A stretch of DNA of 64,000 bases, taken from positions 256,702-320,701 of the forward strand of contig CALHCF010000009.1 of the NCBI GenBank assembly GCA_937930635.1, in the 5' to 3' direction. A model generated the notes under the pieces. The model was not told the origin of the DNA. It worked only from the letters and a program-made list of their open reading frames with translations, and ran no database searches. Positions within the stretch are counted from its first letter, which is position 1, and each line of letters starts with the position of its first letter. Below are positions 12,434 to 54,861 of this stretch, piece by piece. The translations under genes and the position numbers were made by a program. This stretch comes from an uncultured Rhizobiaceae group bacterium. GTDB taxonomy: Bacteria; Pseudomonadota; Alphaproteobacteria; Rhizobiales; Rhizobiaceae.

Positions 12434-12512
12434 AAGATCCTCCCCGTCAAACATTATCTTGATGCTTGACAATGGGCGACGCTAGCCAAATAATTCTACA
12501 TAGTCAAATTGA

Positions 12513-12529
12513 GTTCCATATAATGGAAC
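12513..12529. promoter_or_regulatory. Palindromic operator, probably for IclR
   Basis: Perfect 7-bp arms around a 3-bp centre: GTTCCAT-ATA-ATGGAAC. It sits in the 253-base divergent region between iclR and the sugar-binding protein gene, about 80 bases upstream of the iclR start. IclR proteins bind short palindromes of this size; that this one is the target is inference from position. Confidence 0.65.
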
Positions 12530-12686
12530 AAAATGAGATGGCTTGCGCTGTTCACGCTGTCTATCGTGTGAAGATGTGTAAGACTTGACGCATCTTGCGG
12601 GATTCTGATCCGGAAGCTCGTGAGCAATCGTTGCGCCAGTTCGATATTGTGGCAGGCGCACATTATATCAATCGGGAGGACATTAC

Positions 12687-15250: not shown

Positions 15251-15251
15251 G

Positions 15252-16103
15252 ATGTTTCCCACCCCCGTTGCAAAATATTCCGGCTGGGCACAGTGGTCTT
15301 ACAAGCTTGCAATTCCGGTTGCGCTGTTCCTCTGGTTATTGCCATTGCTGGCCATTTTCATGACATCAATCCGCCCGGCGTCTGATATCGCCCAGGGCAA
15401 TGTCTTCGGCATTCCCAGCAGTTTCCAGATGATCCAGAACTATGCCGAGGTCTTCGCCAAAACAGAGGCGCTGCAATATCTGATAAACACGCTGATCATC
15501 ACAATTCCGACCATGATTATTTCGGTTGGGCTTGCCTGTCTCACGGGCTATGCACTGGCAATCTACAGGTTCCGCTGGTCGCTGCCGCTGTTTTTTCTGT
15601 TTGTTGCCGGTAATTTCGTACCATTCCAAATTCTGATGCTGCCGGTTGTGGACATGTCCAACAGACTGGAAATCATCAACACCGTGCCGGGGCTTGTGAT
15701 GTTTCACGCAGCCTTCCAGACCGGGTTTTGTACTTTGTTCATGCGCAACTTTATCAAGGCCCTGCCGTTCGAGCTGATCGAGTCAGCGCGGCTGGAAGGT
15801 GTCGACGAATTTCGTATCTTCTGGCATTTGGTGTTGCCGCTCGTGCGACCCGCCATTGCAGCACTGTCTGTGCTGATTTTCACCTTCATCTGGAACGATT
15901 TTTTCTGGGCAACGGTGATGATTCAAAATGATGCCAGCCTGCCGATTACCGTTGGCGTGAGGACATTGAACGGAGAGTTTGTGCAGCAATGGCATCTCAT
16001 TTCCGCGGCATCCCTGTTGGCTGCTGTCCCTCCTGTCATCATGTTTTTCATTGCCCAGAAACACTTCATCGCCGGCCTGACGCTTGGCGCGACAAAAGGG
16101 TAG
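15252..16103 (+). CDS. Sugar ABC transporter permease (MalG type)
   Basis: Second permease of the importer, 283 residues with six membrane segments. The EAA loop is ESARLEGVDEFRIFWHLVLP near residue 180, and the C-terminus FIAQKHFIAGLTLGATKG is typical of MalG-like permeases, where the tail reaches into the ATPase dimer. It starts one base after the previous stop (ACTGAGATG), so translation is coupled. Confidence 0.93.
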   Translation: MFPTPVAKYSGWAQWSYKLAIPVALFLWLLPLLAIFMTSIRPASDIAQGNVFGIPSSFQMIQNYAEVFAKTEALQYLINTLIITIPTMIISVGLACLTGYALAIYRFRWSLPLFFLFVAGNFVPFQILMLPVVDMSNRLEIINTVPGLVMFHAAFQTGFCTLFMRNFIKALPFELIESARLEGVDEFRIFWHLVLPLVRPAIAALSVLIFTFIWNDFFWATVMIQNDASLPITVGVRTLNGEFVQQWHLISAASLLAAVPPVIMFFIAQKHFIAGLTLGATKG

Positions 16104-16109
16104 AGCTCT

Positions 16110-17066
16110 TTGAGTGCGATGGAAAACGGCGTCCTCATCGCACTTGATTGGGGCACGACCAATGTCCGGGCAGCCCTGTTGGCTGCTGATGGGCTGGTGA
16201 TCGATAAACGGCAGGCCGACAGCGGTGTCGGCCATTTTTCCACGCAACAGTTTGCTGCGCATTTTCGTAAACTCACGCAAGGCTGGCCCGCACTGCCCGC
16301 AATAGCGTCAGGGATGGTTGGCAGCCGCCAGGGATGGCGGGAGGCAAGTTATCTGCCCTGCCCTGCCAGCCTTGCTGACCTTGCCGGTTCACTGCTGCGT
16401 TTTCACGACAATGATCAGGAACTGGCCATTGTGCCCGGCTTGAAAATCGAGACAGATCAACACCGTGATGTCATGAGAGGCGAGGAAACCCAGATTGCGG
16501 GACTGCTTGCTGATGAGAGCAATTTTTCGGGTACGGTGGTTTTACCGGGATCCCATTCCAAGTGGGTACGGGTTCATGATGGTGTAGTGCGTAATTTTCG
16601 AACTTATATGACTGGCGAACTGTTTGACGCGTGTTCCAACCACACGATACTGCGCCATTCGGTCGAACCGGATGATCATGATGCCGCCGCTTCTGAACCC
16701 AATGGTGAAGAAGACCACCGTGACTTTGTCGCTGCCGTCGGTGAAGTCTTTCAGGCACCCGGCAGCAGTTTTGGCAGGCTATTTGGCCTGCGGGCCGATA
16801 CTGTTTTGTCAAAGGCTGACAAACACAGTGCCCGTGAGAGGCTCTCGGGTCTGTTGATCGGCATGGAGCTTGAAGCCGCAGCGCGCGATGGTTTCGATGT
16901 CCAGGACATAACAATTATTGGAACAAGTGACCTGACTGGCCGGTACAGTCGCGCGGCCACCGTTCTTGCGGCACAAGTGAAAACCCATGTCAGTTCACAG
17001 CTTGTCTGGCCAGCTCTGTTTGCACTTGCACGGACGGGTGCACTTCTTGAAGGAGCTGATGCATGA
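16110..17066 (+). CDS. dgoK: 2-dehydro-3-deoxygalactonokinase
   Basis: Phosphorylates 2-keto-3-deoxygalactonate to KDPGal, the fourth step of the De Ley-Doudoroff galactose pathway. 318 residues with the ASKHA-type phosphate motif ALDWGTTNVRAALL, SGMVGSRQGW, VLPGSHSKWV and FRTYMTGELF, all DgoK signatures. The first start is TTG at 16110; ATG at 16119 would remove three residues and is equally plausible. It lies 6 bases after the permease and overlaps dgoA by 4 bases (ATGA). Confidence 0.93.
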   Translation: MSAMENGVLIALDWGTTNVRAALLAADGLVIDKRQADSGVGHFSTQQFAAHFRKLTQGWPALPAIASGMVGSRQGWREASYLPCPASLADLAGSLLRFHDNDQELAIVPGLKIETDQHRDVMRGEETQIAGLLADESNFSGTVVLPGSHSKWVRVHDGVVRNFRTYMTGELFDACSNHTILRHSVEPDDHDAAASEPNGEEDHRDFVAAVGEVFQAPGSSFGRLFGLRADTVLSKADKHSARERLSGLLIGMELEAAARDGFDVQDITIIGTSDLTGRYSRAATVLAAQVKTHVSSQLVWPALFALARTGALLEGADA

Positions 17067-39910: not shown

Positions 39911-41608
39911 ATGTTCTCACGCAGAGAATTTTTGCAATTTGGCGCCGTTGCTGCATCCACGTTGGTTACGGCTCAAGCCGGTCTGTCGAGTCGTTCGATG
40001 GCCCAACAACGTTTGACCCAGGATGACTTGCTGAATTTTGACAGCAAGGGACAGGTAACTCTCCTTCATTTCACCGATGTCCATGCGCAGTTAAAGCCGG
40101 TGTATTTCCGTCCTCCGTCAACCAATCTAGGTGTCGGCGATTATGCGGGATTGCCGCCCCATTTGGTTGGTGATGAATTCCTCCGGCATTTTGATCTGAC
40201 ACCCAAGACACCGCTCGCCTACGCCCATACAATGGTCGACTATGTCGATTTGGCCAGAAGTTTTGGGAAGCTTGGCGGGCTAGACCGTGTCTCCACATTG
40301 GTTAAAGCGATCCGTGCGGAGCGCGGCGAAGGAAAGGTGCTCTTTCTCGATGGTGGTGACACCTGGCAGGGATCGTATACATCGCTGAAAACCAACGGCG
40401 CCGATATGGTCGAGTGCATGAAATTGCTCAAACCCGACGCGATGGTTGGTCATTGGGAATTTACCTTTGGCGAGGAGCGGGTTCAGGAAATCGTTGATGC
40501 GCTGGGCTTTCCGTTTCTTGCGTCCAACGTGGTCGACAATGAATGGGAAGAGCCGGTTTTTGAAAGCACCGCCTCCTTCGAAAAAGGGGGGGTGAATGTG
40601 GCCGTCATCGGACAGGCCATGCCCTATACCCCCATCGCAAACCCGCGCTGGAAAATCCCTAACTGGTCGTTTGGAATCAGACCCGACTTGCTTCAAAAGA
40701 ACGTCGATGCCGCTCGCGCTAAGGGAGCGGAAGTTGTCGTTTTATTGTCTCACAATGGTTTCGACGTTGACCGGAAACTTGCCGGCTTGATTTCCGGTAT
40801 CGATGTCATTTTGACTGGGCACACCCATGATGCGGTTCCTCAAGCGATTAACATTGATGGGACACTGCTTCTCTCTTCCGGTTCACACGGAAAATATCTA
40901 GGGCGCGTTGACCTCGAGATAAAGGGCGGCAAGGTCGTCGATTATTCGTCAAACCTGATCCCTGTGTTTTCCGATGTGGTGGAATCAGACGCTGAGATGG
41001 CGGCAAAGGTTGTTGAATTTAGAGGGCCTCATGAAACCGAACTCAATCGGGTTTTGGGGAAAACTGAAGGGTTGCTTTACAGACGCGGGAACTTCAACGG
41101 CACCTGGGACGATCTGATTTGCGAAGGCCTAATTGAGCAGCGCGATGCGGAGATTTCGTTATCGCCCGGCTTCCGTTGGGGAGCAACGCTTCTGCCGGGT
41201 CAGGATATTACGGTCGACGACCTCTATAACCAGACGGCGATCAATTACCCCAATGTCTATCGGGTTGAGTTCACCGGTGCGCAACTCAAAGAGATTCTGG
41301 AAGACGTGTGCGACAATCTGTTCAACAAGGACCCGTTCCTGCAGCAGGGCGGAGACATGGTTCGGGTTGGCGGAATGGGCTATTCCTGCGCTCCGGATCA
41401 GGAGATCGGAAGCCGTATTTCCGACATGACGCTGCTGCGTTCCGGAGAACCAATTGAGGCGAGCAAAAGCTATGTGGTGGCCGGTTGGGCTTCAGTGAAT
41501 GAAGGCACCGAAGGCCCGCCCATCTATGATCTTATGAAAAAACACATCATTTCCAAAGGCTCGATCAACATACCTGAAAGTCAAAACGTAAAACTGCTTC
41601 GAACCTAG
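39911..41608 (+). CDS. soxB: Thiosulfohydrolase SoxB
   Basis: 565 residues with a Tat leader (SRREFLQFGAVAASTLVTAQ). It is a dimanganese metallophosphoesterase-like enzyme that hydrolyses the sulfonate from SoxY-bound cysteine-S-thiosulfonate. Metal-site motifs: LLHFTDVHAQLKP, DGGDTWQGSY, GHWEFTFG and GHTHDAV. The C-terminal 5'-nucleotidase domain spans about 370-565. AGGGAGAG precedes the ATG. In other sox clusters soxA usually sits just upstream of soxB; here the G-run does. Confidence 0.97.
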   Translation: MFSRREFLQFGAVAASTLVTAQAGLSSRSMAQQRLTQDDLLNFDSKGQVTLLHFTDVHAQLKPVYFRPPSTNLGVGDYAGLPPHLVGDEFLRHFDLTPKTPLAYAHTMVDYVDLARSFGKLGGLDRVSTLVKAIRAERGEGKVLFLDGGDTWQGSYTSLKTNGADMVECMKLLKPDAMVGHWEFTFGEERVQEIVDALGFPFLASNVVDNEWEEPVFESTASFEKGGVNVAVIGQAMPYTPIANPRWKIPNWSFGIRPDLLQKNVDAARAKGAEVVVLLSHNGFDVDRKLAGLISGIDVILTGHTHDAVPQAINIDGTLLLSSGSHGKYLGRVDLEIKGGKVVDYSSNLIPVFSDVVESDAEMAAKVVEFRGPHETELNRVLGKTEGLLYRRGNFNGTWDDLICEGLIEQRDAEISLSPGFRWGATLLPGQDITVDDLYNQTAINYPNVYRVEFTGAQLKEILEDVCDNLFNKDPFLQQGGDMVRVGGMGYSCAPDQEIGSRISDMTLLRSGEPIEASKSYVVAGWASVNEGTEGPPIYDLMKKHIISKGSINIPESQNVKLLRT

Positions 41609-41698
41609 CATCGCAACGCATGTTTCGAAGTGGGTGAGAATGCTTGCAATGCATATACAAATATGATTGTTTGAATATTAGGGGAGGAGAATGCTGAA

Positions 41699-42991
41699 AT
41701 GTCGTTGTCACATCGGGACGACCAGAAAGAGGTCGTGAATGTCGGTAGACGCAGACTACTAACCTCTGGTGCCGCCGGAGGCGCAACACTTCTCGCGAGC
41801 GCCACCAATGCTCTTTCAGCTTCAAAACCTGATCCAGCAATTACTGAAATTCAAGATTGGAACCGCTATACGGGTGACGGGGTCGACGCGCGCCCTTATG
41901 GAACGCCTTCCGCTTTCGAGAAGGATGTTGTTCGCCGAAACGTACCTTGGTTGACGGCAGACCCGATTGCTTCGGTGAACTTCACTCCCCTGCACGAACT
42001 TGACGGCATTATCACACCAAACGGCCTTTGCTTTGAGCGTCATCACGGTGGCATCGCCGAGATTGATCCAGCAGAGCACCGGCTGATGATCAATGGTCTA
42101 GTTGAAAGACCTCTTGTTTTTACCATGGAAGACCTGATGCGGTTCCCGCGTGTGAACCGGGTTTATTTCCTTGAGTGTGCTGCAAACACCGGCATGGAAT
42201 GGCGTGGAGCGCAGCTCAACGGATGTCAATTCACTCACGGCATGATCCACAACGTCATGTATACTGGCGTGCCGCTCCGCCTGCTTCTTGAAGAAGCGGG
42301 AGTGAAAACTGCCGGGAAATGGGTTCTCCCTGAAGGGGCCGATGCTTCGCACATGACGCGGTCCATTCCACTTGAGAAAGCGCTTGATGATTGCATTGTC
42401 GCTTTCAAGATGAATGGAGAAGCATTGCGCCCCGAACAGGGATATCCGGTTCGTCTCGTTGTTCCTGGTTGGGAAGGCAATATGTGGGTGAAGTGGCTGC
42501 GCCGCATCGAAGTTGGCGACCAGCCCTGGCATCACCGCGAGGAAACATCGAAATATACAGACCTGTTGGAAAGCGGCAAAGCCCGTCGCTTCACCTGGGA
42601 GATGGATGTCAAATCCGTCATCACCAACCCAAGCCCGCAGGCACCATTGACCCATGGGTCGGGTCACACGGTTCTGTCCGGTGTTGCCTGGTCAGGGTCT
42701 GGGAAAGTGAAGCGCGTTGATGTTTCAATCGATGGTGGACGCAATTGGCAGACCTCCCGTCTCGATGGGCCAAGCCTCTCAAAATCCATGCACCGCTTCT
42801 ATTTCGACTTTGATTGGGATGGATCGGAGATGTTCCTCCAGTCGCGCGCAATGGATGAGAACGGTCAGGTTCAGCCGACGAAGAACCAGCTACGAGAAGC
42901 CCGCGGTCCGAACTCAGTCTATCACAACAACTCAATTCAAACGTGGCATGTGAAACCAGATGGGAGTGCGGAAAATGTCGAAATTTCCTAA
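41699..42991 (+). CDS. soxC: Sulfane dehydrogenase subunit SoxC
   Basis: 430 residues with a Tat leader (RRRLLTSGAAGGATLLASA). It is a sulfite-oxidase-family molybdopterin protein: the molybdenum Cys lies in VYFLECAANTGMEWRG, followed by the Mo-Co dimerisation domain in the C-terminal 130 residues. With SoxD it oxidises the sulfane sulfur bound to SoxY. Presence of SoxCD normally means full oxidation to sulfate without sulfur globules. AGGAG precedes the ATG; soxD overlaps by 17 bases. Confidence 0.96.
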   Translation: MSLSHRDDQKEVVNVGRRRLLTSGAAGGATLLASATNALSASKPDPAITEIQDWNRYTGDGVDARPYGTPSAFEKDVVRRNVPWLTADPIASVNFTPLHELDGIITPNGLCFERHHGGIAEIDPAEHRLMINGLVERPLVFTMEDLMRFPRVNRVYFLECAANTGMEWRGAQLNGCQFTHGMIHNVMYTGVPLRLLLEEAGVKTAGKWVLPEGADASHMTRSIPLEKALDDCIVAFKMNGEALRPEQGYPVRLVVPGWEGNMWVKWLRRIEVGDQPWHHREETSKYTDLLESGKARRFTWEMDVKSVITNPSPQAPLTHGSGHTVLSGVAWSGSGKVKRVDVSIDGGRNWQTSRLDGPSLSKSMHRFYFDFDWDGSEMFLQSRAMDENGQVQPTKNQLREARGPNSVYHNNSIQTWHVKPDGSAENVEIS

Positions 42992-44078
42992 GCTTCTTCT
43001 TTCCCTGGCCGTTGTCGGTTCACTTGGCGGCGGCGTTTCATTCGCCGATGAAATCAAGGACGGCAAAAAGGTTTTTAAGAAATGCCGAGCCTGTCATGCG
43101 GTTGGCAAAAAGGCCAAAAACAAAGTCGGCCCGCATCTCAATGATCTGTTTGGCCGCACTGCTGGCGCTCTTGAGGGATACAAATTCTCCAAGGCCATGA
43201 AAGCTGCTGGCGCCGATGGTCTCGTCTGGAATAATGACACGATCGATCAGTTTGTGACCAAGCCAAAAAAGCTGATCAAAAAGACCAAAATGGCCTTTGC
43301 CGGACTGAAAAAAGAAAAAGATCGGGCAAATCTCATGGCCTATCTAAAGAGCTTTGACAGCGATGCCGGTTCTGATGCGGCTAAAGACGATAAGCCTGTA
43401 GACAAAGAAGCCTCGGGCGAACAAACGACAAAGACGGCAAGTACAACCGATGGAGCGACCCAGCCGAAGACTGCATCCGGCTCTGGCGGAAAACTCAATA
43501 TTGGCCGCCTTGCGCTCACTGAAGAGGTGAAGGCCTGGGACATTGATGTTCGCTACGATGGTCAAGGTCTGCCTCCGGGAAAAGGGACTGTTGCTGAAGG
43601 TGAACCAATTTTCACCGAACAATGCGCGTCCTGCCACGGTGATTTTGGTGAAGGTGTTGATCGTTGGCCTGTCCTCGCTGGTGGACAAGGCACGCTGGAA
43701 GATGATCGTCCTGAAAAAACGATTGGCTCCTATTGGCCATATACGTCAACTGTTTTCGACTATATCCGACGCGCAATGCCTTTTGGAAATGCGAGATCTT
43801 TGTCTGACGATGAGGTCTACGCTCTGACGGCCTATGTTTTATATCTCAATGACATTGTCGAAGATGAAGACTTCGAATTGTCAAAGGAGAATTTCAACTC
43901 GATCCGTCTCCCAAATGAGAAGAACTTCATTGCGGATACCCGCAATGAAGAACCGCATTACAAGCCCGTTACAGAACCTTGTATGAAAGACTGTAAACCG
44001 GAACCCGCCAAGCTGCTCATGCGCGCTCGCGTTCTCGATGTGACACCAGATGGTGATCACGAAGGGAGCCTTGATTAG
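42975..44078 (+). CDS. soxD: Sulfane dehydrogenase cytochrome subunit SoxD
   Basis: 367 residues, signal peptide at 1-24 (PKLLLSLAVVGSLGGGVSFA). Two c-type haem motifs, KKCRACH near residue 40 and QCASCH near 215, are joined by a Thr/Ser/Lys-rich linker of about 60 residues. MPFGNARSLSDDEVYALTAYVL is the second haem domain, with its axial Met. Accepts electrons from SoxC. The start ATG lies inside soxC. The first haem domain is strikingly like that of the next gene. Confidence 0.95.
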   Translation: MSKFPKLLLSLAVVGSLGGGVSFADEIKDGKKVFKKCRACHAVGKKAKNKVGPHLNDLFGRTAGALEGYKFSKAMKAAGADGLVWNNDTIDQFVTKPKKLIKKTKMAFAGLKKEKDRANLMAYLKSFDSDAGSDAAKDDKPVDKEASGEQTTKTASTTDGATQPKTASGSGGKLNIGRLALTEEVKAWDIDVRYDGQGLPPGKGTVAEGEPIFTEQCASCHGDFGEGVDRWPVLAGGQGTLEDDRPEKTIGSYWPYTSTVFDYIRRAMPFGNARSLSDDEVYALTAYVLYLNDIVEDEDFELSKENFNSIRLPNEKNFIADTRNEEPHYKPVTEPCMKDCKPEPAKLLMRARVLDVTPDGDHEGSLD

Positions 44079-44080
44079 CC

Positions 44081-44785
44081 GTGAAGAGTTGGGGAGGAAC
44101 AATCCGGAAATCTTCTAAGACCGTCCTGCTCTCGACTGTGGTGGCAGGAATTTTCCTTGGCTTGTTTGCGTCCAATGGATTGGCTTTGGCACCACCCAAA
44201 AGCTTCAAGAAATGCGTTGCCTGCCACCAGGTTGGGGAGGACGCCAAGAACACCGTTGGACCACAACTCAATGCGTTGGAAGAACGACCGATTGGCTCGG
44301 TTCCCGGCTACAAATATTCAAAGGCGCTTAAAAAGTTCGCGCAAGAAAATGACATCTGGACCGTCAATACGCTCGGTGAATTTCTGAAAAAACCGCGAAA
44401 ATACATTCGTGGTACGAAGATGAGTTTCGCCGGTCTGAAGAAGGAAAGCGAGCGGACCGAACTTGTGAATTGGTTGCTGCACACAGCCGAGAAAAAGGCA
44501 GATACCAGCGCAGATCAGTTGCTTGGAGCAAGTGCTGCTGCCCAGCAGGCTGACCCCGAATATGGGCAATATTTGTCCGGCGAGTGCGTCACCTGCCATC
44601 GCCCGGGTGGCGCAGAGGGCATTCCAAATATCAACGGTTGGGAATCGCGAAACTTCATTCACGTTCTCTACGAATACAAGCAGGAAGTGCGGAAAAATCC
44701 GGTGATGGTCACTGTCGCAAAAAGGCTTGGCGACGAGGAAATCGCCGCTCTGGCCGCCTATTTCGCCTCAATTGAGGCTGAGTGA
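44081..44785 (+). CDS. Dihaem cytochrome c, SoxE / FccA-like
   Basis: 234 residues with a signal or membrane anchor at 10-35. Two haem motifs: KKCVACHQVG and GECVTCHRPGG. The first domain closely parallels SoxD (FKKC-ACH, VGPQLNALEERPIGSVPGYK, TKMSFAGLKKE), while the second is of the sulfide dehydrogenase type. It starts with GTG 2 bases after soxD. It is followed by a flavoprotein and is expected to form a flavocytochrome complex, SoxEF or FccAB. The name soxE is probable but not certain. Confidence 0.88.
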   Translation: MKSWGGTIRKSSKTVLLSTVVAGIFLGLFASNGLALAPPKSFKKCVACHQVGEDAKNTVGPQLNALEERPIGSVPGYKYSKALKKFAQENDIWTVNTLGEFLKKPRKYIRGTKMSFAGLKKESERTELVNWLLHTAEKKADTSADQLLGASAAAQQADPEYGQYLSGECVTCHRPGGAEGIPNINGWESRNFIHVLYEYKQEVRKNPVMVTVAKRLGDEEIAALAAYFASIEAE

Positions 44786-44809
44786 ATTCCAAAGAAGGAG
44801 GAGAGAAGC

Positions 44810-46081
44810 ATGACAAAATTTAACAGAAGGGGCTTTCTGGCCACATCGGGTGGAGCGGCAGTTGCCACACTGGCGATGCCAGCAATAAGCTTCGGCCAGG
44901 CAAAACCCAAAGTGGTTGTTGTTGGCGGTGGTGCCGGTGGTGCAACAGCAGCCCGCTACCTCGCAAAAGACAGCAAAGGTGCAATTGATGTCACGCTGAT
45001 CGAGGCAAGCAAGCGCTACTACACGTGCTTCTTTTCAAACCTCTATCTCGGTGGTTTCCGTGATTATGAATCCATCGGACACGGCTATGATCGCCTTGCC
45101 GTTAATCACGGTGTGAATGTGATCCATGACTGGGCGTCCGGTGTAGATTCTGCTGCGAAGACCGTGACGCTCGCGTCCGGTACGAAAGTTCCTTACGATC
45201 GCCTTGTTCTGTCACCCGGCATCGACATGAAATACGACAGCGTCGAAGGCTATTCCGTCGAAGCTCAGGATTCGATGCCCCATGGCTGGAAGTCCGGCAG
45301 CCAGGTTCAGCTGATCAAGGCGCAGGTCGAAGCCATGAAAGAAGGCGGAACCTTCGTCATGGTGCCGCCGCCAAACCCATATCGCTGCCCTCCTGGTCCA
45401 TATGAGCGCGTTTCCATGATCGCTCATATTTTGAAAAAGAAGAACCCAAAAGCCAAGATCATCGTGCTTGACCAAAAGCCGAAGTTCTCAAAACAGGGTC
45501 TCTTTATGGAAGGCTGGCAGAACCATTATCCAGGCATGATCGAGTGGATTGGCTCTGATACCCATGGTGGCATCAAAAACGTAAATCCGGAAACACTGGA
45601 GATCGAAACCGACTTTGACACCTTCAAGGCCGATGCCGCCTCACTCGTGCCTGCCCAGAAAGCCGGAACGATTACTGCCGCAGCCGGTGTCACGGACGGC
45701 GACTGGGCTCCGATTGTTCCTGCGACCATGGCATCGAAAGCTGATGAGAATATTCACGTTCTCGGTGATGCGTCAGTTGCTTCTGCGATGCCAAAATCTG
45801 GCTTCTCTGCAAACAGCCAGGCAAAGGTTGCAGCGAACGCAATCCGCGGAGCGCTGACAGATTCAAAAGTCTTCCCTGCACGTTTCTCCAACACATGCTG
45901 GAGCCTGATCGATACCGATGACGGCGTGAAAGTCGGCGCTAACTACAAGGCTGGCGAAGAGAAGATCGAGGTGGTCGACAAGTTCATCTCCAAAACCGGA
46001 GAAGACTCTGCCCTTCGCAAAGCGACCTACGAAGAATCAGAGGGTTGGTACGCCGGCATCGCCGCTGACATGTTCAGCTAA
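44810..46081 (+). CDS. Flavocytochrome c sulfide dehydrogenase flavoprotein subunit (SoxF/FccB)
   Basis: 423 residues, Tat leader (NRRGFLATSGGAAVATLAMP). FAD motif PKVVVVGGGAGGATAARYLA, the redox cysteines in YYTCFFSNLYLGG and FSNTCWSLIDTDDG, ENIHVLGDAS for FAD binding and the C-terminal FCSD-type domain. Oxidises sulfide to sulfur or polysulfide with cytochrome c, protecting the Sox system. GGAGGAGAG precedes the ATG. A strong terminator follows. Called soxF when linked to sox genes. Confidence 0.95.
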   Translation: MTKFNRRGFLATSGGAAVATLAMPAISFGQAKPKVVVVGGGAGGATAARYLAKDSKGAIDVTLIEASKRYYTCFFSNLYLGGFRDYESIGHGYDRLAVNHGVNVIHDWASGVDSAAKTVTLASGTKVPYDRLVLSPGIDMKYDSVEGYSVEAQDSMPHGWKSGSQVQLIKAQVEAMKEGGTFVMVPPPNPYRCPPGPYERVSMIAHILKKKNPKAKIIVLDQKPKFSKQGLFMEGWQNHYPGMIEWIGSDTHGGIKNVNPETLEIETDFDTFKADAASLVPAQKAGTITAAAGVTDGDWAPIVPATMASKADENIHVLGDASVASAMPKSGFSANSQAKVAANAIRGALTDSKVFPARFSNTCWSLIDTDDGVKVGANYKAGEEKIEVVDKFISKTGEDSALRKATYEESEGWYAGIAADMFS

Positions 46082-47866: not shown

Positions 47867-48712
47867 CTACGTCCCGGTGTTGAAACGATAGGACGATCCC
47901 ACTTTTTCAACATGGCCAATACCCGGATGCCGCAAGTGCATGCCGGCTACTTTCATATTGTCTGTGGCAACCTGATCAAGAACCTTCCTGCGCGTTGCAA
48001 CGGCCAGATCAGGGTCTATATCGAACACAAGGCTGACAGATGGGTCATCAAATTGCAGGTACTGCATATGAACGATATCGGCCCACAGCATCAAAGTTTC
48101 ATTGCCAGATGACAGAATAAAGCCCGTGTGACCCGGCGTGTGACCCGGCAGCGAGACCGAAGTGACGCCGGGGGCGACTTCCTTGTTGTCGCCAATCAAT
48201 TTCAGGCGATCTGAATAGGCATCAACCGCACCGGCTGCCATTTCGAAGAATGGTTTGGCGTCGTCGGGTGCGCCAGCCTTGATGTCGGGATTTGTCCAAA
48301 ACCCATGGTCGTCTGCAGAAACAACCATTTCCGCATTTGGAAAAGCTGCCTTCCCATCGACAACCGCACCGCCGATGTGATCTGGATGCAGATGTGTGAC
48401 AATCAGGCTTTTGACCTGGTCGGGTGTGTAGCCAGCCGCCGCCATATTCTCGGTGAGCTTGCCAAGGGAATCGACCATTCCGGCACCACCAGCATCAACC
48501 AGATGAACGTCCTTGCCATCGTCAATAATGAAAGCGTTGACGGCGGATTCATAGATCCCTGCCGGAAGTCCGGCGGTTGCAAGCACGTCTTGCAGTTTGT
48601 CGTCATCAACGGTGGGCAAGACATCCGCTGTCATGGGGAAAAACCCGTCGGACACCATCGTCACTTTGAGATCGCCAACGTTGAATTGGTGATAGCCTGA
48701 ATTTGAAGTCAT
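47867..48712 (-). CDS. MBL fold metallo-hydrolase
   Basis: 281 residues with the metallo-beta-lactamase zinc motif THLHPDHIGG, SLPGHTPGHTGF and the terminal MHLRHPGIGHVEK. No signal peptide. The overall type (fast opening VGDLKVTMVSDGFFPMTADVLP) is that of alkyl-sulfatase- or lactonase-like cytoplasmic hydrolases; the substrate is unknown. 45 bases upstream on the same strand is the GntR gene end, so co-transcription with that regulator is possible. Confidence 0.87.
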   Translation of the reverse strand: MTSNSGYHQFNVGDLKVTMVSDGFFPMTADVLPTVDDDKLQDVLATAGLPAGIYESAVNAFIIDDGKDVHLVDAGGAGMVDSLGKLTENMAAAGYTPDQVKSLIVTHLHPDHIGGAVVDGKAAFPNAEMVVSADDHGFWTNPDIKAGAPDDAKPFFEMAAGAVDAYSDRLKLIGDNKEVAPGVTSVSLPGHTPGHTGFILSSGNETLMLWADIVHMQYLQFDDPSVSLVFDIDPDLAVATRRKVLDQVATDNMKVAGMHLRHPGIGHVEKVGSSYRFNTGT

Positions 48713-48757: not shown

Positions 48758-49486
48758 TCAGCTTTTCACGAGTGCCAGCCCGGGTATTGCCGGTGAATGC
48801 TTGGCGTTCTGCATGGCATCAAAACTCAAGCGTTTGTTTTCAGAACTTTTGCGGGCATGCTCCTGCATGAGATGCTCTGCGCGCCCGCTTTGTCTTTGTG
48901 AGATGGCATCAACCACGTCTCTGTGGTCTCGTTGGGCACCGGTCAGCCTTGATTGGTTTTGCCCATTATCGTGAGTGTCGAATACAATGGCGCGATAGGA
49001 GACGAGTGGAATTTTCGACAGAGATGCAATTGTGTCTGCCAGAATGCTGTTACCACTGCATATGACAATCGCCATATGAAACTGGGCATTCAGATCGATC
49101 CATCGGATTCGGTCTTCAAGTGTGGTCACTCCATTTGCAAGCAACGTGTCGAGCTGCAGGAGCAAACTGCGCAGTTCTTTAAGGCTTTCGTCGCTTAAAC
49201 CTCGCTCCGCACACAAACGGGCAGCCATTCCCTCCAACTCACCTCGCACCAAGATGGCGCTTGTGACTTCCTCCAGTGTAAACCGGCGAATTTGATACCC
49301 TTTATTTGGTTCGCGGGTCACAAGGCCCTCTTTCTCCAATTCACCAAGTGCAAGCCGGACAACCGTTCTGGAAACGCCCAGCGATGCGGCCAACATCTGT
49401 TCACGCAATTTACCGCTTTCATCAAAGTTCCCAGCGAGCAATTCCTCCCTCAGAGACTGTGTTGTTGCGTCGAGTTGAGTGGTCAT
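48758..49486 (-). CDS. GntR family transcriptional regulator (FCD/FadR subfamily)
   Basis: 242 residues: N-terminal winged helix (LREQMLAASLGVSRTVVRLALGELEKEGLV) and C-terminal FCD domain with ARLCAERGLSDES, DLNAQFHMAIVICSGN and AQRDHRDVVDAISQRQSGRA. The FCD metal/ligand residues (Asp/His/His pattern) appear in the DLNAQFHMAI and DHRDV stretches. Divergent from the M29-like gene with repeated TTGCATGC boxes in the 103-base intergenic region, so it likely represses that operon until its substrate arrives. Confidence 0.92.
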   Translation of the reverse strand: MTTQLDATTQSLREELLAGNFDESGKLREQMLAASLGVSRTVVRLALGELEKEGLVTREPNKGYQIRRFTLEEVTSAILVRGELEGMAARLCAERGLSDESLKELRSLLLQLDTLLANGVTTLEDRIRWIDLNAQFHMAIVICSGNSILADTIASLSKIPLVSYRAIVFDTHDNGQNQSRLTGAQRDHRDVVDAISQRQSGRAEHLMQEHARKSSENKRLSFDAMQNAKHSPAIPGLALVKS

Positions 49487-49496
49487 GAAGGCTCCT

Positions 49497-49504
49497 TTGC
49501 ATGC
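49497..49504. promoter_or_regulatory. TTGCATGC half-site near the gntR start
   Basis: The same 8-base core as in the palindrome at 49558, 10 bases upstream of the gntR start codon. Fits autoregulation by the GntR protein; inferred from repetition and position. Confidence 0.45.
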
Positions 49505-49557
49505 GTTTTACGCGCAGGAGTTGATAAATTCCAGTCAAAATGCTTATTTATTTCAAA

Positions 49558-49569
49558 ATTGCATGCAAT
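49558..49569. promoter_or_regulatory. Perfect palindrome ATTGCATGCAAT, probable GntR operator
   Basis: 12-bp perfect inverted repeat, 21 bases upstream of the start of the operon at 49590 and 72 bases from gntR. FCD-type GntR proteins bind short palindromes of this kind. The TTGCATGC core recurs at 49497. Inference from location. Confidence 0.65.
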
Positions 49570-49589
49570 CCTGACCAAGGAGCCTAAAA

Positions 49590-51218
49590 GTGCTTGATAA
49601 GCCCGGACAACACACCCCTGACACAAAACCGGATCAGGCTCTGGGAACATCGGGCTTCGCCATGCCGCAAAGAGCCAGCGGCGCAAAACCAGAAATTGCC
49701 CCTTCTTACGAAGCGCCGCCGCTGCAGGCGTCTCGCCCCCCTCGCTGTCCTCCCTTTGTTGAAATATCCAATTCGGATCAGCTTCTGCCGTATCTCGAGC
49801 ACGTCGCGCAGCGCCCCTATAATCATGGTCTAAATGCCTGCTGGGATTTGCAGCCTGGTGAGCGGGTTATGTTGCGGGTCGACAATTGGCACAGCGAGCT
49901 CACAATCGAAGCCTGCAAGAAAATCCTCGAAAAGTATAAGGTCAAATATGAGATCAAATACATCGACCGTGGTCCCATACCCCAATGGGTAGGGGCTGAT
50001 GAAGTTGAATATTATCTCTTCAGAACCAAAGAACTTGCCGATTGGATGGACTGGTGGGAGGAAGAGGAAAAAAAGCAGCAGTATGACAAAATCCTGATGG
50101 GATATGGCGGGCCTGTGCTTGCTGAGCGTTACATCAAGATACAGCGCATGCCTTTCATCACCCCCGAAATTCTGGCCTCCCCGGCGCATGCCATGCCAAT
50201 TGAGGTTCTAAATGCTATTGATCAATGGACCTGGGAAAGAATTCGTTCCGCCAAGCGATGCAGAATTACGGATCCTGAAGGTACTGACATCAGCTTTACC
50301 AATCACGATGAATACTGGGATAGCAAGCGCGAGTTTTACAATCCCGAGCTGACGGAAGCCACATGGCGAGGCAACGAGCACTTTGGCAAAACCTATTTGC
50401 CGGGCCACATTACCGGGCGACCATGGATGTTCCACCCTTCCAAAGAAGATGGAACTGGCGTGATCGCGGGAACAACAAATCATATCGCAGCCTGTGACTG
50501 GACCCAGCTCGAAGTTGAAAATTCAAAAATTGTGAAGATCAATGAAGGCGGCGAATTTGGCAGGAAACTGCGCGATGTAATGGAGAAGACCAAGGATATT
50601 CAATATCCAACTTTCCCGGACAAAGGCATCATGCATTGGTGGGAAGCCTCGATCGGGACCAACCCCCATATTCACCGCCCGCGAAAAGATTTCCCGTCTG
50701 GTTTTGTGAACTGTCTATACGAGCGGGTGCGTTCCGGCGTTATTCACATGGGCTTTGGTACAATTATTTCTTCCATGGCAGAGCGAGAAGCCGCCCGGAT
50801 GGGCCACCTCGTCGGCCATTGGCATTTGCATCTGTATTTTCCAACCTATGAAACGCAAAATTCAGGCGACAATGAAACCATCATTGAAAATGGTCGTCTT
50901 AACGCGCTTGATGATCCTGCGATACGCAAGCTGTGTTCCAAATATGGCGATCCCGAAATGTGGTTGGATGAAAGCTGGAACCCGGCTGTACCGGGCATCA
51001 ATATGTCGGGAGACTATTGGGACCACTATGCACAAGACCCTTTGCATTGGGTGCGTTCTGAATTGGAAATCTGCCGCAACTATCACCCGCTGTTCATGAA
51101 AATGGTGGGCGCAGATGGAAAATACTGCCACGGCGCGGGCGCTGATTGGTGGAAAGGCGGCTGCTGTAACCACAGCGGAGTACATGCCCCTATCTTAGGC
51201 GGGAATTGCTGCGGATAA
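49590..51218 (+). CDS. Uncharacterised 542-residue protein, distantly like M29 aminopeptidase / NicX
   Basis: No close family is recognised. A Pro-rich first 60 residues precede a body with CRITDPEGTDISFTNHDEYW (223-242), which recalls the TxxGTDLxF motif of M29 aminopeptidases and 2,5-dihydroxypyridine dioxygenase NicX. MHWWEASIGTNPHIHRPRKD (348-367), GVIHMGFG (383-390) and a His-rich stretch GHLVGHWHLHLYFPTYE (405-421; His406, 410, 412, 414) could supply a metal centre. A Cys/His-rich tail (513-541, five Cys) ends the protein. It is first in a run with a TRAP transporter and likely acts on its substrate. The start is a ribosome-site-poor GTG/TTG-type codon at 49590. Confidence 0.75.
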   Translation: MLDKPGQHTPDTKPDQALGTSGFAMPQRASGAKPEIAPSYEAPPLQASRPPRCPPFVEISNSDQLLPYLEHVAQRPYNHGLNACWDLQPGERVMLRVDNWHSELTIEACKKILEKYKVKYEIKYIDRGPIPQWVGADEVEYYLFRTKELADWMDWWEEEEKKQQYDKILMGYGGPVLAERYIKIQRMPFITPEILASPAHAMPIEVLNAIDQWTWERIRSAKRCRITDPEGTDISFTNHDEYWDSKREFYNPELTEATWRGNEHFGKTYLPGHITGRPWMFHPSKEDGTGVIAGTTNHIAACDWTQLEVENSKIVKINEGGEFGRKLRDVMEKTKDIQYPTFPDKGIMHWWEASIGTNPHIHRPRKDFPSGFVNCLYERVRSGVIHMGFGTIISSMAEREAARMGHLVGHWHLHLYFPTYETQNSGDNETIIENGRLNALDDPAIRKLCSKYGDPEMWLDESWNPAVPGINMSGDYWDHYAQDPLHWVRSELEICRNYHPLFMKMVGADGKYCHGAGADWWKGGCCNHSGVHAPILGGNCCG

Positions 51219-51266
51219 TTGGACGACGAACACTCTTAACTTGAACTGCTAATCTGGGAGGTGAGC

Positions 51267-52328
51267 ATGAATATCAAGACAACACTTATGGCTGGTGCAT
51301 TTACATTTTCTGCACTTGCATTTGTTGGGGAGGCATATGCGAAGACACTGCGCTATGCCGAGTTTGGACCGAACCGCGGAACGAGAGCTCAAGCGCTTAA
51401 TTGGTTTGCCGATGAACTGAAGAAACGCTCCAATGGCGAGCTGGAAATTGAGTTCCACTGGGGCAAATCCCTGCTTGGAACCAAAGCCGTTCTGCAAGGC
51501 TTGGGCGATGGCGTTGCCGACATGGGTTCCGTGATTGGCTTTTTCACGCCTAAGAAATTGCGCGGATATAATATCGGGGATCTTCCGGTCGCCAATTCAG
51601 ACGAATGGGTTGGCATGCGCGCGCTTTATGAGTTCGCAAACACCAACGGCACCATAAAGAAGGAATTTGCAAAACAGGGTGTCCACTATGTAACCAATTA
51701 TACGACTGGTCCCATTCAGCTCATTTGCACAAAACAGGTCAGCTCGCTTGCTGACCTCAATGGGGTCAAACTGCGTGGCTCCGGCCCATACGGCAAAACA
51801 TTTGGAGACTTCGGTGCTGATGTTCAGCGCATGGGGCAGGCGAAAGTCTATCAAGCGCTTGAGTCCGGCCTCGTCGAGTGCAACCAAAATTACTACTACT
51901 CCATGAAAGCCTATAAGCAATATGAGGTCGCCCCCCATGTCGTTGAGCTCGACTGGGGACAGAACATGGCCTTTGGCATCATGATGAACCAGGGTTCATG
52001 GGAAGGGCTAAGCGCTGATCATCAAAAGCTGATCAGTGACCTTGGTTCGGAATTCATCGATGAAATCGCCAAGCTTATGATTGATGGCAAGTCCAGCAAC
52101 AAGCAGGCTATGGTCGATGGGATTGAAGGCAAGAAAATCAATGTCGTTAATCTCGCAGATGAAGATCGTAGCAAGCTTCTGGATGGCGGCAAGAAGTATG
52201 TGGATGCCTGGGTCGCAGAAGCTGCCGAGCAGGGATATGACGGGAAAGCCTTGCTGACTTCATATGAAAGTCTCATCGCCAAATACGCTGATGAGAAAAA
52301 GGCAAAAGGCTATCCTTGGACCCGTTAA
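51267..52328 (+). CDS. TRAP transporter substrate-binding protein (DctP family)
   Basis: About 353 residues with a signal peptide (KTTLMAGAFTFSALAFVGEAYA). Mature features: KTLRYAEFGPNRGTRAQALN, LEIEFHWGKSLLG and the substrate-anchoring loop NGVKLRGSGPYGKTFGDFGA with a conserved Arg. ATG 51267 is chosen with GGGAGGTGAG just upstream; GTG 51261 is the alternative. Ligand unknown, probably a carboxylate-bearing compound because DctP sites hold an Arg for a carboxylate. Followed by its membrane partners. Confidence 0.92.
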   Translation: MNIKTTLMAGAFTFSALAFVGEAYAKTLRYAEFGPNRGTRAQALNWFADELKKRSNGELEIEFHWGKSLLGTKAVLQGLGDGVADMGSVIGFFTPKKLRGYNIGDLPVANSDEWVGMRALYEFANTNGTIKKEFAKQGVHYVTNYTTGPIQLICTKQVSSLADLNGVKLRGSGPYGKTFGDFGADVQRMGQAKVYQALESGLVECNQNYYYSMKAYKQYEVAPHVVELDWGQNMAFGIMMNQGSWEGLSADHQKLISDLGSEFIDEIAKLMIDGKSSNKQAMVDGIEGKKINVVNLADEDRSKLLDGGKKYVDAWVAEAAEQGYDGKALLTSYESLIAKYADEKKAKGYPWTR

Positions 52329-52828
52329 GCCCCGATAGCGAGTCTACCCAGGACAAAGCTTCATTGCCGGAGCGAGTTTTCCTTACTCTGGCAATGACCG
52401 GCATTTGTGCTCTCTGCCTCACCGTGACTGTTACGGTCCTGTCTCGGACCTTCTACAAATCAATCATACCCGATGACGTGTTGATTGTGCGGGAACTTAT
52501 GGTTGCAACCATTCTGTTTCCCCTTGCTGCTGTATCAGCAAACCGCGCGCATATTGCCGTTACAATCTTCACAGACTGGGTCGGCCCCAAAGGGAAAAAT
52601 CTTCTCTCCATATTTGCGCATATTGTTGGGGTAACATTTGTCACGTTTATGCTTGTTGCCGGTTTCCGCCTTTTCTCCGGCGCATGGGAATCCGGCGAAT
52701 ATTATGATGGTGACATCTACATTCCAATGTGGATTGGATATGCAACATTTCTTGCTGCTTTGATCCTGTTTCTTGTGCGCCTGATTGTAAATCTGATTTA
52801 CGATCTGAGGCCATCAGACCAAATCTAA
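52316..52828 (+). CDS. TRAP transporter small permease (DctQ family)
   Basis: 170 residues with four membrane segments: FLTLAMTGICALCLTVTVTV, ELMVATILFPLAAVSA, IFAHIVGVTFVTFMLVAG and MWIGYATFLAALILFLVRLI. RAHIAVTIFTDWVG is the conserved DctQ segment. The start is a TTG overlapping the dctP stop by 13 bases; a later TTG at 52364 is possible. It forms the membrane complex with DctM. Confidence 0.85.
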   Translation: MDPLSPDSESTQDKASLPERVFLTLAMTGICALCLTVTVTVLSRTFYKSIIPDDVLIVRELMVATILFPLAAVSANRAHIAVTIFTDWVGPKGKNLLSIFAHIVGVTFVTFMLVAGFRLFSGAWESGEYYDGDIYIPMWIGYATFLAALILFLVRLIVNLIYDLRPSDQI

Positions 52829-52840
52829 GCTGGCGGCATT

Positions 52841-54187
52841 GTGGAACCAACGACACTCGCTCTGCTAGCCCTGTTCGTTGTCATCTGCCTTCTCGTATTG
52901 CGGGTCCCGATTGCCTTTGCTCTGGGGGGCGTCGCCTGTGTCGGCCTTTTCATCTTTTTTGCATGGCGGCCCGGTGGAGAATTTGAAGCCGCGCGGGCGT
53001 TGCGCCCGGTAATGTCACTGATCGGCAATACAACATTCGAATTTGTCCATAACTATCCCTTGAGCATGATCCCGCTGTTTATCGGGCTTGGTCATATTTC
53101 CTACCATGCAGGCATTACGACTGACCTGTATGACGCCATGCGCGTCTGGCTTTCAAAATTACCGGGCGGTTTGGCAATTGCTTCTGTGGTAGGGTGCGGA
53201 GGCTTCTCAGCAATTACCGGTTCCAGTGTTGCCTGCGCTTCAGCCATGGGGCGCATCACTGTTCCCGAAATGCTGAGGTCGGGCTACAGCCCATCACTGG
53301 CAACCGGATCGGTGGCAGCAGGGGGGACATTAGGCTCTCTGATACCGCCAAGCCTCTTGTTCGTGATCTATGCAATTTTTACGGAAGAGTCTGTTCGCAC
53401 ACTCTTTCTTGCAGGAATTTTGCCCGGCATACTTTCAATGGCCGGGTTTGTCATAACCATTTTGGTATGGGCAAAAGTTAGTCCTGCCTCTGCCCCACGT
53501 TATGATACGACTGACCTATTGTTTAGACAGAAGCTACAAACCCTTACGGGTGTTTGGCCGGCTTTCCTCCTGCTCACAATCATTATCGTTGGCATCTATT
53601 GGGGGTTTTTTACGCCGACTGAAGCTGCGGCAATTAGTTTTGCCATGGCGATCCTGATTGGACTGTTTCGTAAACGCCTCAACCGGGCGAACATCCATCA
53701 AGCCTTGAAAGAAACGGCGATACAGACATCTGCAATTTTTCTGATTGCCATCGGCGCCAAAATTTTCGTTGCCTTTATATCTTTGACACGCATTGCTCCC
53801 AATCTTCTCGACTGGCTACAGGGCTCCGGAGCCCCTCTGATATTGGTTCTGGCGGGCATTGTGCTGTTTTATCTGTTGCTGGGCATGTTCCTGGATTCAA
53901 TCGGCATTCTTGTTTTGACCCTGCCCTTCACTGTGCCTCTGATAGAGGGGTATGGGCTTGACCTGATCTGGTTTGGTGTGGTCGTCATCAAGCTCCTTGA
54001 AATTGGATTGATTACCCCACCTGTAGGCCTAAATGTATTTGTGATTAAATCTGTATCTCCACCCGCAGTGACGCTTGAAACAATTTTCAAAGGTGTTGCG
54101 TGGTTTTTGGTCCTTGATCTGTGTGTGTTGCTCGCAATCCTCCTATTCCCCCAGATCAGCCTGTTTATCCCAATGAGCGCCAGATGA
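52841..54187 (+). CDS. TRAP transporter large permease (DctM family)
   Basis: 448 residues, about twelve membrane segments. Typical DctM stretches: SKLPGGLAIASVVGCGGFSAITGSSVA, GTLGSLIPPSLLFVIYAIF and LLGMFLDSIGILVLTLPFTVP. Na+-coupled. The start is GTG 52841, 12 bases after dctQ; the stop overlaps the methyltransferase ATG (ATGA). Confidence 0.94.
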   Translation: MEPTTLALLALFVVICLLVLRVPIAFALGGVACVGLFIFFAWRPGGEFEAARALRPVMSLIGNTTFEFVHNYPLSMIPLFIGLGHISYHAGITTDLYDAMRVWLSKLPGGLAIASVVGCGGFSAITGSSVACASAMGRITVPEMLRSGYSPSLATGSVAAGGTLGSLIPPSLLFVIYAIFTEESVRTLFLAGILPGILSMAGFVITILVWAKVSPASAPRYDTTDLLFRQKLQTLTGVWPAFLLLTIIIVGIYWGFFTPTEAAAISFAMAILIGLFRKRLNRANIHQALKETAIQTSAIFLIAIGAKIFVAFISLTRIAPNLLDWLQGSGAPLILVLAGIVLFYLLLGMFLDSIGILVLTLPFTVPLIEGYGLDLIWFGVVVIKLLEIGLITPPVGLNVFVIKSVSPPAVTLETIFKGVAWFLVLDLCVLLAILLFPQISLFIPMSAR

Positions 54188-54861
54188 GTGAACATCTCGA
54201 TATTCTGACCAAACACTGTGATGTGAGTCGTAAATCGGTCTGTGATATCGGGGCTGGAGATGGCTCCTTTGCCGCCTCTCTGGTCAATTTGGGAGCAAAT
54301 GTTACCGCAGTGGAAGTTGATGAGCAGCATGTATCCGCCATCAAACAAGCTCATGGAGACACGATTACAGCTCTAATGGGCGAAGCGCAGGCGCTTCCTC
54401 TTCCAGATGCGTCTGTCGATCTCGCATGCTTCATGTTTTCATTTCATCACGTGCCTCTTCATTATCAAGAGACCGCAATTTCTGAGGCCCAACGTGTACT
54501 AAGACCAGCCGGCAGGCTTCACGTGGCAGACCCAAGACCGTTTGGACAGCTTACGGAGGTGTTGTTGCACGTCGATGATGAGACTGAAGTGCGAACCATT
54601 TCCCAAAAACGCATGGATAACCTCCACGCAAACGGAAACTTCGTGCTTGTATCAAAAGACGAATACACGCTCGTTCGAACCTTCAAAAACTTCAATGAGC
54701 TCACATCAAAACTCATCATGAATGACACCACCCGAGCCGAACGTTTGCCAAGTGTAAGAGACAAAATGGAAACAGCATTCCATAAGCTTTCAAAGAAAAC
54801 TGAAATGGGCTTCGTTCTCAACCAACCCTGCGTTTCATTTCACTTCGAGAGAGCTCGCTAA
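54184..54861 (+). CDS. SAM-dependent methyltransferase, UbiE-like
   Basis: 225 residues, class I fold: motif I VCDIGAGDGSFAASL, motif II acidic VEVDEQHV and motif III LRPAGRLHVADP. FSFHHVPLHYQ is a characteristic turn. The substrate is unknown. It overlaps dctM by four bases, so it is part of the operon with the TRAP system and the M29-like protein and may modify the imported compound. Confidence 0.87.
   Translation: MSEHLDILTKHCDVSRKSVCDIGAGDGSFAASLVNLGANVTAVEVDEQHVSAIKQAHGDTITALMGEAQALPLPDASVDLACFMFSFHHVPLHYQETAISEAQRVLRPAGRLHVADPRPFGQLTEVLLHVDDETEVRTISQKRMDNLHANGNFVLVSKDEYTLVRTFKNFNELTSKLIMNDTTRAERLPSVRDKMETAFHKLSKKTEMGFVLNQPCVSFHFERAR

Follow-up and report, generated by a model that had tools for sequence, protein, structure and literature searches.

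Within a 64,000-nucleotide stretch of contig CALHCF010000009.1 from an uncultured Rhizobiaceae group bacterium (hereafter the window), a 542-residue protein, here called F, is encoded on the plus strand between a minus-strand GntR/FCD regulator gene and plus-strand genes for three TRAP subunits and a class I methyltransferase (48758-54861). Judged from sequence and predicted structure, F appears to represent an undescribed, strongly conserved family within the NicX/M29 superfamily, surrounded by a catabolic unit of a known kind. The fold and homology of F, the invariance of its candidate ligand residues, the conservation of an operator and the association of the genes are established by the results below. 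The explanation that we favor, at a probability close to but just under even, is a horizontally scattered, substrate-regulated uptake-and-conversion unit, in which F would be a hydrolytic metalloenzyme catalyzing the first committed step. Catabolic clusters of the Roseobacter type with TRAP or TctC (tripartite tricarboxylate) importers follow the same logic of regulator, importer and catabolic enzyme; in contrast to these, the catalytic gene is here outside any described family found.

F adopts the NicX/M29 fold outside known sequence families

A sequence-only reading of the window had assigned F to no clear family, and database comparisons bore this out. F matched no Pfam family (E ≤ 1) and no PDB sequence (E ≤ 10), and its single match in NCBIfam (E 0.046) was a chance one, far under the cut-off. 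When the family profile was compared with PDB sequences, the sole match had an E-value of 1.1. In an alignment of 58 members, comprising the window protein and 57 of 64 relatives (L007, L008, L032, L033, L041, L044 and L063 were omitted), no relevant Pfam model was matched by any member, and the M29 model PF02073 matched 0/58 in hmmscan at E ≤ 1. Since both this search and a direct profile-profile comparison were blank, membership of M29 by sequence was rejected. Searches of Pfam, NCBIfam, PDB sequences and open-access PMC literature gave no well-studied orthologue, which would have spoken against the novelty of F, and the literature yielded no description of F.

The predicted structure of F (predicted local distance difference test, 82; predicted template modelling score, 0.85) has the fold of both NicX and the M29 enzymes, to which F is also linked by sequence through distant intermediates. 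Thus the kinship with M29/NicX that had been proposed from the motif TDPEGTDISF was upheld, and both this motif and the His-rich stretch GHWHLHLYFPTYE are present in F. NicX was the best structural match in two programs, while the crocagin proteins CgnB/CgnE (6zsv, 6zsu), peptide binders of a biosynthetic pathway that are about 310 residues long compared with 542 in F, ranked third. Relative to NicX, F carries about 60 additional N-terminal and about 100 additional C-terminal residues, the latter including a Cys-rich tail. In the superfamily tree, F formed a clade of nine rows (support 100/100) whose branch is 2.68 changes per column long, separate from a NicX clade of 12 rows (100/100).

A differently built metal site is predicted for F

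Candidate metal ligands of F are Glu352, Glu378, His386 and His410/412/414, the three last being located on the strand GHWHLHLYF. Glu352, His386, His410, His412 and His414 were identical in 65/65 rows of a MAFFT alignment of open reading frames, some of them over-extended at the N-terminus, and Glu378 was identical in 57/58 rows, the remaining row being unreadable there. More than 150 columns were invariant across the 58 family rows. From these residues, the predicted site would comprise Glu352, Glu378, His386 and two of His410/412/414.

In NicX (2,5-dihydroxypyridine 5,6-dioxygenase of Pseudomonas putida, PDB 7cn3, 7cup) the iron ligands are His265, Ser302, His318 and Asp320, as given in passages of PMC7910607. 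In a 33-member superfamily alignment the corresponding columns were Glu352, Gly388, His and His in 9/9 F rows, so that one of the four Fe(II) ligands is retained; the Asp320 column was Asp in 24/24 rows from outside the family and His in F. The substrate residues of NicX, His105, Glu177 and His189, corresponded to a gap, a variable residue and Gly in 9/9 F rows, in a region where the alignment is uncertain. Because these substrate-holding residues are lost, dihydroxypyridine itself is an unlikely substrate of F; an N-heterocyclic or amino-acid-derived acid had been put forward as a candidate in the sequence-only reading.

CgnB has a dinuclear zinc site with an H-x-D motif, and CgnE is a metal-free, peptide-binding M29 relative. 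In passages of PMC10070186 the metal set of CgnB consists of six ligands (Glu, Glu, Glu, His, His, Asp). F retains four of the six CgnB/M29 ligand positions, namely the shared Glu (352), Glu378, His386 and one His. In contrast to the M29 aminopeptidases AmpT, PepS and AmpS (2ayi, 4icq/4icr/4ics, 1zjc), the six-ligand dinuclear set is incomplete in the F rows examined, as a carboxylate is missing from the first Glu column and the Asp column has His instead. By the alignments the Asp of H-x-D is lost in F whichever of them is used.

That F belongs with the ordinary M29 aminopeptidases or the ordinary 2,5-dihydroxypyridine dioxygenases is hardly credible. The fold is shared, but the M29 model and profile do not match, F forms its own well-supported clade at the end of a long branch, and the ligand sets of both families are broken, which contradicts this assignment at the ligand level. 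It is possible, albeit rather unlikely, that F is a NicX-like non-heme iron dioxygenase cleaving the ring of a hydroxylated aromatic or heteroaromatic acid taken up by the importer. The facial triad of F would be formed by Glu in the place of His265 and two His in the places of His318 and Asp320; carboxylate and histidine would effectively have swapped places, leaving a 2-His-1-carboxylate set that can still be built, and NicX as the top structural match is in line with this. Against it, three of the four NicX iron ligands and the three substrate-holding residues are lost, and F retains Glu378 and His386, both members of the M29/CgnB set. Hydrolysis is favored over oxygenolytic cleavage because four of six M29/CgnB positions are kept compared with one of four NicX ligands. 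The retained ligands thus place F nearer to M29/CgnB and the overall fold places it nearer to NicX, which gives hydrolysis a small lead over oxygenolysis.

The five-Cys tail that had been suggested to bind metal is real and was found in relatives in some form, but its length and spacing vary. Of 65 rows, Cys513 was kept in 65, Cys525 in 58, Cys526 in 50, Cys540 in 60 and Cys541 in 63. Metal handling, as suggested by this tail, would also suit a distinctly unlikely alternative, in which F is a metal- or ligand-binding protein, or a lyase, isomerase or decarboxylase, rather than an enzyme acting on the imported substrate. A 3-His-1-Glu site is also found in cupin decarboxylases. The precedent for binding is CgnE; both crocagin proteins, which came third among the structural matches, bind peptides, and aminopeptidase activity was not observed for them in the passages of PMC10070186 concerned. 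However, the invariance of the candidate ligands and of so many further columns fits a specific catalyst better, as do the smallest units, which consist of a regulator, F and an importer.

We propose tentatively, at a confidence somewhat below even, that F represents a new metalloenzyme family. In it, an invariant H-x-H-x-H strand opposite Glu352, Glu378 and His386 would have taken the place of H-x-D, and the Cys-rich tail would load the metal. F would open a widespread undescribed route, and depending on the lineage one of three unrelated enzymes would supply the downstream step: a LeuCD-like hydro-lyase with a rewritten substrate motif together with a C-C lyase, an enolase-superfamily enzyme, or aconitase X. 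Because the predicted metal site of F is differently built, the unit probably marks an undescribed breakdown route, and the altered site would, if true, extend the known repertoire of the NicX/M29 fold.

A conserved, mostly paired putative operator precedes F

The regulator contains an N-terminal GntR helix-turn-helix domain (PF00392, 53.2 bits, cut-off 27, E 2.3e-14) and a C-terminal FCD domain (PF07729, 73.5 bits, cut-off 24.3, E 2.7e-20), which confirms the identity read from the sequence and places it in the FCD (FadR) subfamily. What most clearly points to a functional unit is the palindrome between this gene and F, by its sequence a conserved, mostly paired putative operator. The palindrome ATTGCATGCAAT that had been reported was found at 49558-49569, as the sole exact copy in the window. 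With three window matches at ≤2 mismatches compared with 6.2 expected, it is unremarkable within the window alone; its significance follows from the conservation of TGCATGCA across loci. This core was present at the promoter in 32/34 regulator-bearing loci, compared with 263/6800 (3.9%) random 500-bp pieces of those loci, with the promoters themselves left in the sampled segments, and the runner-up 8-bp palindrome was found in 7/34 loci. Among 32 loci in which this regulator is encoded within 4 kb, 25 had TGCATGCA upstream of F, a count that leaves out L022, L032 and L044 for too little upstream sequence. Where an importer gene is ahead of F (L012, L015, L016, L023, L024, L027, L037), the sites precede the importer gene.

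Upstream of F, paired sites, counted as 7-base cores, were 41, 52 or 62-64 bp apart (about 4, 5 or 6 helical turns) in 17 loci, and the same spacings were found in the seven loci with an importer gene ahead; L062 was spaced otherwise and seven loci had a single core. In the window, the partner of the palindrome is the degenerate site TGCATGCG, 62 bp upstream. The pair pattern matched once in the genome of the window (77.8% complete), at the F promoter. At least one match was obtained in 17 of 18 genomes of relatives, with many located elsewhere and mostly on a single strand; both-strand matches occurred in 11 genomes at 12 places, and by coordinate arithmetic each of the 12 coincides with the F locus. 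This regulon search, covering the window genome and the 18 others, added no gene to the pathway. Near Streptomyces and other distant NicX-like genes (10 loci), TGCATGCA was absent save for one site at the edge of L094.

The same core is known from Mycobacterium smegmatis, where the FadR-type GntR regulator Ms0535 was footprinted on two TTGCATGCA cores (site CCTTGCATGCATTCTTGCATGCAAGG), as described in passages of PMC4609117. Both systems share the TTGCATGCA core and, by the same passages, an operator beside a transporter gene, whereas the two cores of Ms0535 lie within a 26-bp motif and those found here are mostly 41, 52 or 62-64 bp apart.

Importers and accessory enzymes vary around F

Gene neighborhoods were counted over 65 loci, window included, after removal of L001, L066 and L067, which duplicate the window, L003 and L025. 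As several loci are truncated, counts of importers, modules and operators are sensitive to contig ends; F itself is partial in L022, L044 and L063. This GntR/FCD regulator was found in 34/65 loci, TRAP genes in 27, a TctC-type binding protein in 14, an ABC component in seven (six with a binding protein) and the methyltransferase in nine. Among 20 loci that carried no TRAP, TctC or ABC label, five had an MFS and three a TonB-dependent system, and L060 had SsuA/TauC-like ABC genes. In 11/65 loci, GntR and TctC labels alone stood beside F. The five genes, whose co-conservation had been set as a check in the sequence-only reading, do not form a constant set, given the counts for regulator, TRAP genes and methyltransferase. 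From these variable counts, the core is the regulator, F and some importer, with the methyltransferase being optional. The catabolic character proposed earlier held as an appearance, given by regulator, importer, enzyme and swappable accessory enzymes.

Three accessory modules were recognized: a LeuCD-like pair with a lyase of the isocitrate lyase (ICL)/PEP-mutase family (13/65 loci), an enolase-superfamily enzyme (11/65) and aconitase X (6/65). No locus had two of them and the pattern tracks taxonomic groups; this mutual exclusion is suggestive. LeuCD loci usually have the order IclR regulator, LeuC, LeuD, lyase and F, with divergent TRAP genes. The nearest solved relative of LeuC is an isopropylmalate/citramalate isomerase (258.8 bits), and in the LeuD-like subunit (L031:8493-9017 and 12 other loci) GHPHYPP replaces the GSSRE motif of isopropylmalate isomerases in 13/13 cases; on these sequences the pair probably acts as a hydro-lyase on an unusual substrate. 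Since the partner lyase belongs to the methylisocitrate/dimethylmalate/petal-death-protein family, it suggests together with LeuC an alkylated malate-type intermediate. Alkylated malates would also suit the dioxygenase alternative, in which ring cleavage would give a substituted maleate to be hydrated by the LeuCD-like hydro-lyase and split by the ICL-family lyase. Three gammaproteobacterial loci lend further weight to it: a second NicX/M29-like protein of 351-353 residues with E/H/HxD ligands is encoded beside F (L047:17290-18345; L051:11761-12822, with a sub-threshold M29 match; L052:7366-8421), and two of these loci encode a benzoate-CoA-ligase-family protein and two a PaaK-like ligase with a reductase of the old yellow enzyme type. 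However, no NicX-pathway amidase or deformylase was noticed beside F, with no dedicated search made.

The nearest solved chains of the window DctP are 4n6d, 4pgn/4pgp and 4nap; 4pgn/4pgp and 4nap are presumably indole/tryptophan-type binders, which would be in line with the dioxygenase alternative. A literature search for the ligands of these chains found nothing. With a regulator, an operator and an importer of its own, the unit offers two direct handles on the substrate, namely its binding protein and its operator.

Three substrate classes were considered. For organosulfonates, a SauS-like dehydrogenase (L049) and an SsuA-like binding protein below cut-off (L060) concern few loci and may be chance neighbors, as may the DoeA-like hydrolase of L048 for ectoine. 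Phosphonates were rejected as unsupported, the PhnR-, PhnU2- and PhnT2-type similarities being weak and all below cut-off. In L049 itself, the acylating sulfoacetaldehyde dehydrogenase gene (15168-16604, SauS-like, above cut-off) is near SucC/SucD-like genes, similarly to L058 and L065, and by sequence these genes may form a sulfoacetate operon next to the F locus. The ectoine hydrolase DoeA homologue (L048:7702-8892, above cut-off) is close to F, as are its counterparts in L003 and L046. Small hydrophobic proteins of 135-167 residues in two sequence groups adjoin F in nine loci (for example L012:9522-9986, L014:11528-11956, L040:12251-12697 and L059:11536-11955), and the four tested matched no Pfam family.

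F is scattered among genomes and under strong purifying selection

The genome scan returned 64 relatives of F with 64-90% identity, not all of which are independent since L005 has the same assembly name as L007, and L008 the same as L010. By record titles most come from Alphaproteobacteria and Burkholderiales and some from Gammaproteobacteria; one is a Paenibacillus and one is labelled Mesoflavibacter. In the last (L009), the F locus is alphaproteobacterial-like, with 86% identity and the same TRAP and enolase-type genes, and this record may be mislabelled. F has a rare and patchy distribution: it was found in 2/60 relatives of the window genome, in 0/14 of its own genus and in 3/288 other genomes drawn from its class, where a fourth genome with distant relatives only was not counted. 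No paralogue was found in the window genome, which gave a single match, and a plasmid collection gave six distant actinobacterial matches only (23-27% identity).

Synonymous sites were saturated in 12/12 pairs tested, and the nonsynonymous substitution rate (dN) was 0.07-0.30, with values of 0.07-0.14 in nine alpha- and betaproteobacterial pairs. As dN is low relative to saturated synonymous sites, F is under strong purifying selection and, by these sequences, is conserved like a core enzyme.

One alphaproteobacterial genome (G200; L080, L085) has two F copies in differing settings. In one alphaproteobacterial genome, two distant NicX/M29-like genes are about 5 kb apart (L087:6140-7366 and 12066-13259); neither has an NCBIfam family, and the one tested (L084) has no Pfam family.

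A proposed substrate-regulated uptake-and-conversion unit

In the explanation that we favor, the GntR/FCD protein would bind the paired TGCATGCA operators between its own gene and F, and the substrate would presumably release or switch it. An organic acid would enter via the TRAP transporter, elsewhere via a TctC-type, ABC, MFS or TonB-dependent system. Cytoplasmic F would then perform the first committed step, in which a metal-activated water may attack an amide, imide, lactam or similar bond, and the product would be processed by lineage-specific accessory enzymes (LeuCD-like hydro-lyase with lyase, enolase-superfamily enzyme or aconitase X).

Several results weigh against this explanation. 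The nearest fold, NicX, is an oxygenase and not an aminopeptidase; the direct profile-profile comparison of F with 10 M29 proteins gave a probability of 0.2%; the point at which F joins the superfamily is not fixed by the tree (support 40/4); and two alignments disagree by two residues on which pair among His410/412/414 matches H-x-D. The methyltransferase of the window has no role in the scheme. Thirty of 62 loci with enough upstream sequence lacked this regulator within 4 kb, with TGCATGCA upstream of F in 0/30, and in 11/65 loci, several at contig ends, no importer of the searched types was recognized. Moreover, metal, reaction, substrate and direction of regulation are all points that we infer.

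Organization of the locus

The genes and coordinates given in the sequence-only reading were reproduced (Table 1). Its complete TRAP importer was confirmed by adjacent DctP, DctQ and DctM genes, all above their Pfam cut-offs, and its methyltransferase by a domain above cut-off. The start of the latter is most likely, from the sequence, the ATG at 54184, in an ATGA overlap with the DctM stop, rather than the GTG at 54121 that opens the open reading frame.

Table 1. Features of the F locus (positions in the window; SAM, S-adenosylmethionine)
Feature	Position	Strand	Basis or remark
GntR/FCD-family regulator	48758..49486	-	divergent from F; Pfam GntR and FCD; homologues at 34/65 F loci including the window
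Putative upstream operator half of pair, degenerate TGCATGCG	49498..49505		pair-pattern match; 62 bp spacing
Putative downstream operator ATTGCATGCAAT	49558..49569		exact palindrome; TGCATGCA core conserved
F, 542-residue predicted metalloenzyme, NicX/M29 superfamily	49590..51218	+	fold model; 64 relatives
DctP, TRAP solute-binding protein	51267..52328	+	PF03480, E 5.3e-31
DctQ, TRAP small membrane subunit	52316..52828	+	PF04290, E 1.1e-19; start codon uncertain
DctM, TRAP large membrane subunit	52841..54187	+	PF06808, E 9.2e-86
Class I SAM-dependent methyltransferase, optional member	54184..54861	+	Methyltransf_11, E 1.3e-18, above cut-off

Among the remaining window genes, only a metallo-beta-lactamase-fold gene and members of generic families, for example ABC ATPases, recurred at the loci of relatives. 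The segment at 39911-46081 looks sulfur-oxidation-like by eye (Sox-type and flavocytochrome c genes) and has no counterpart at other F loci. The metallo-beta-lactamase-fold gene (47867-48712) adjoins the regulator and resembles the AidB lactonase, below cut-off. Convergently oriented, it recurs in the order metallo-beta-lactamase, GntR, F and TRAP in two close relatives, L002 and L063.

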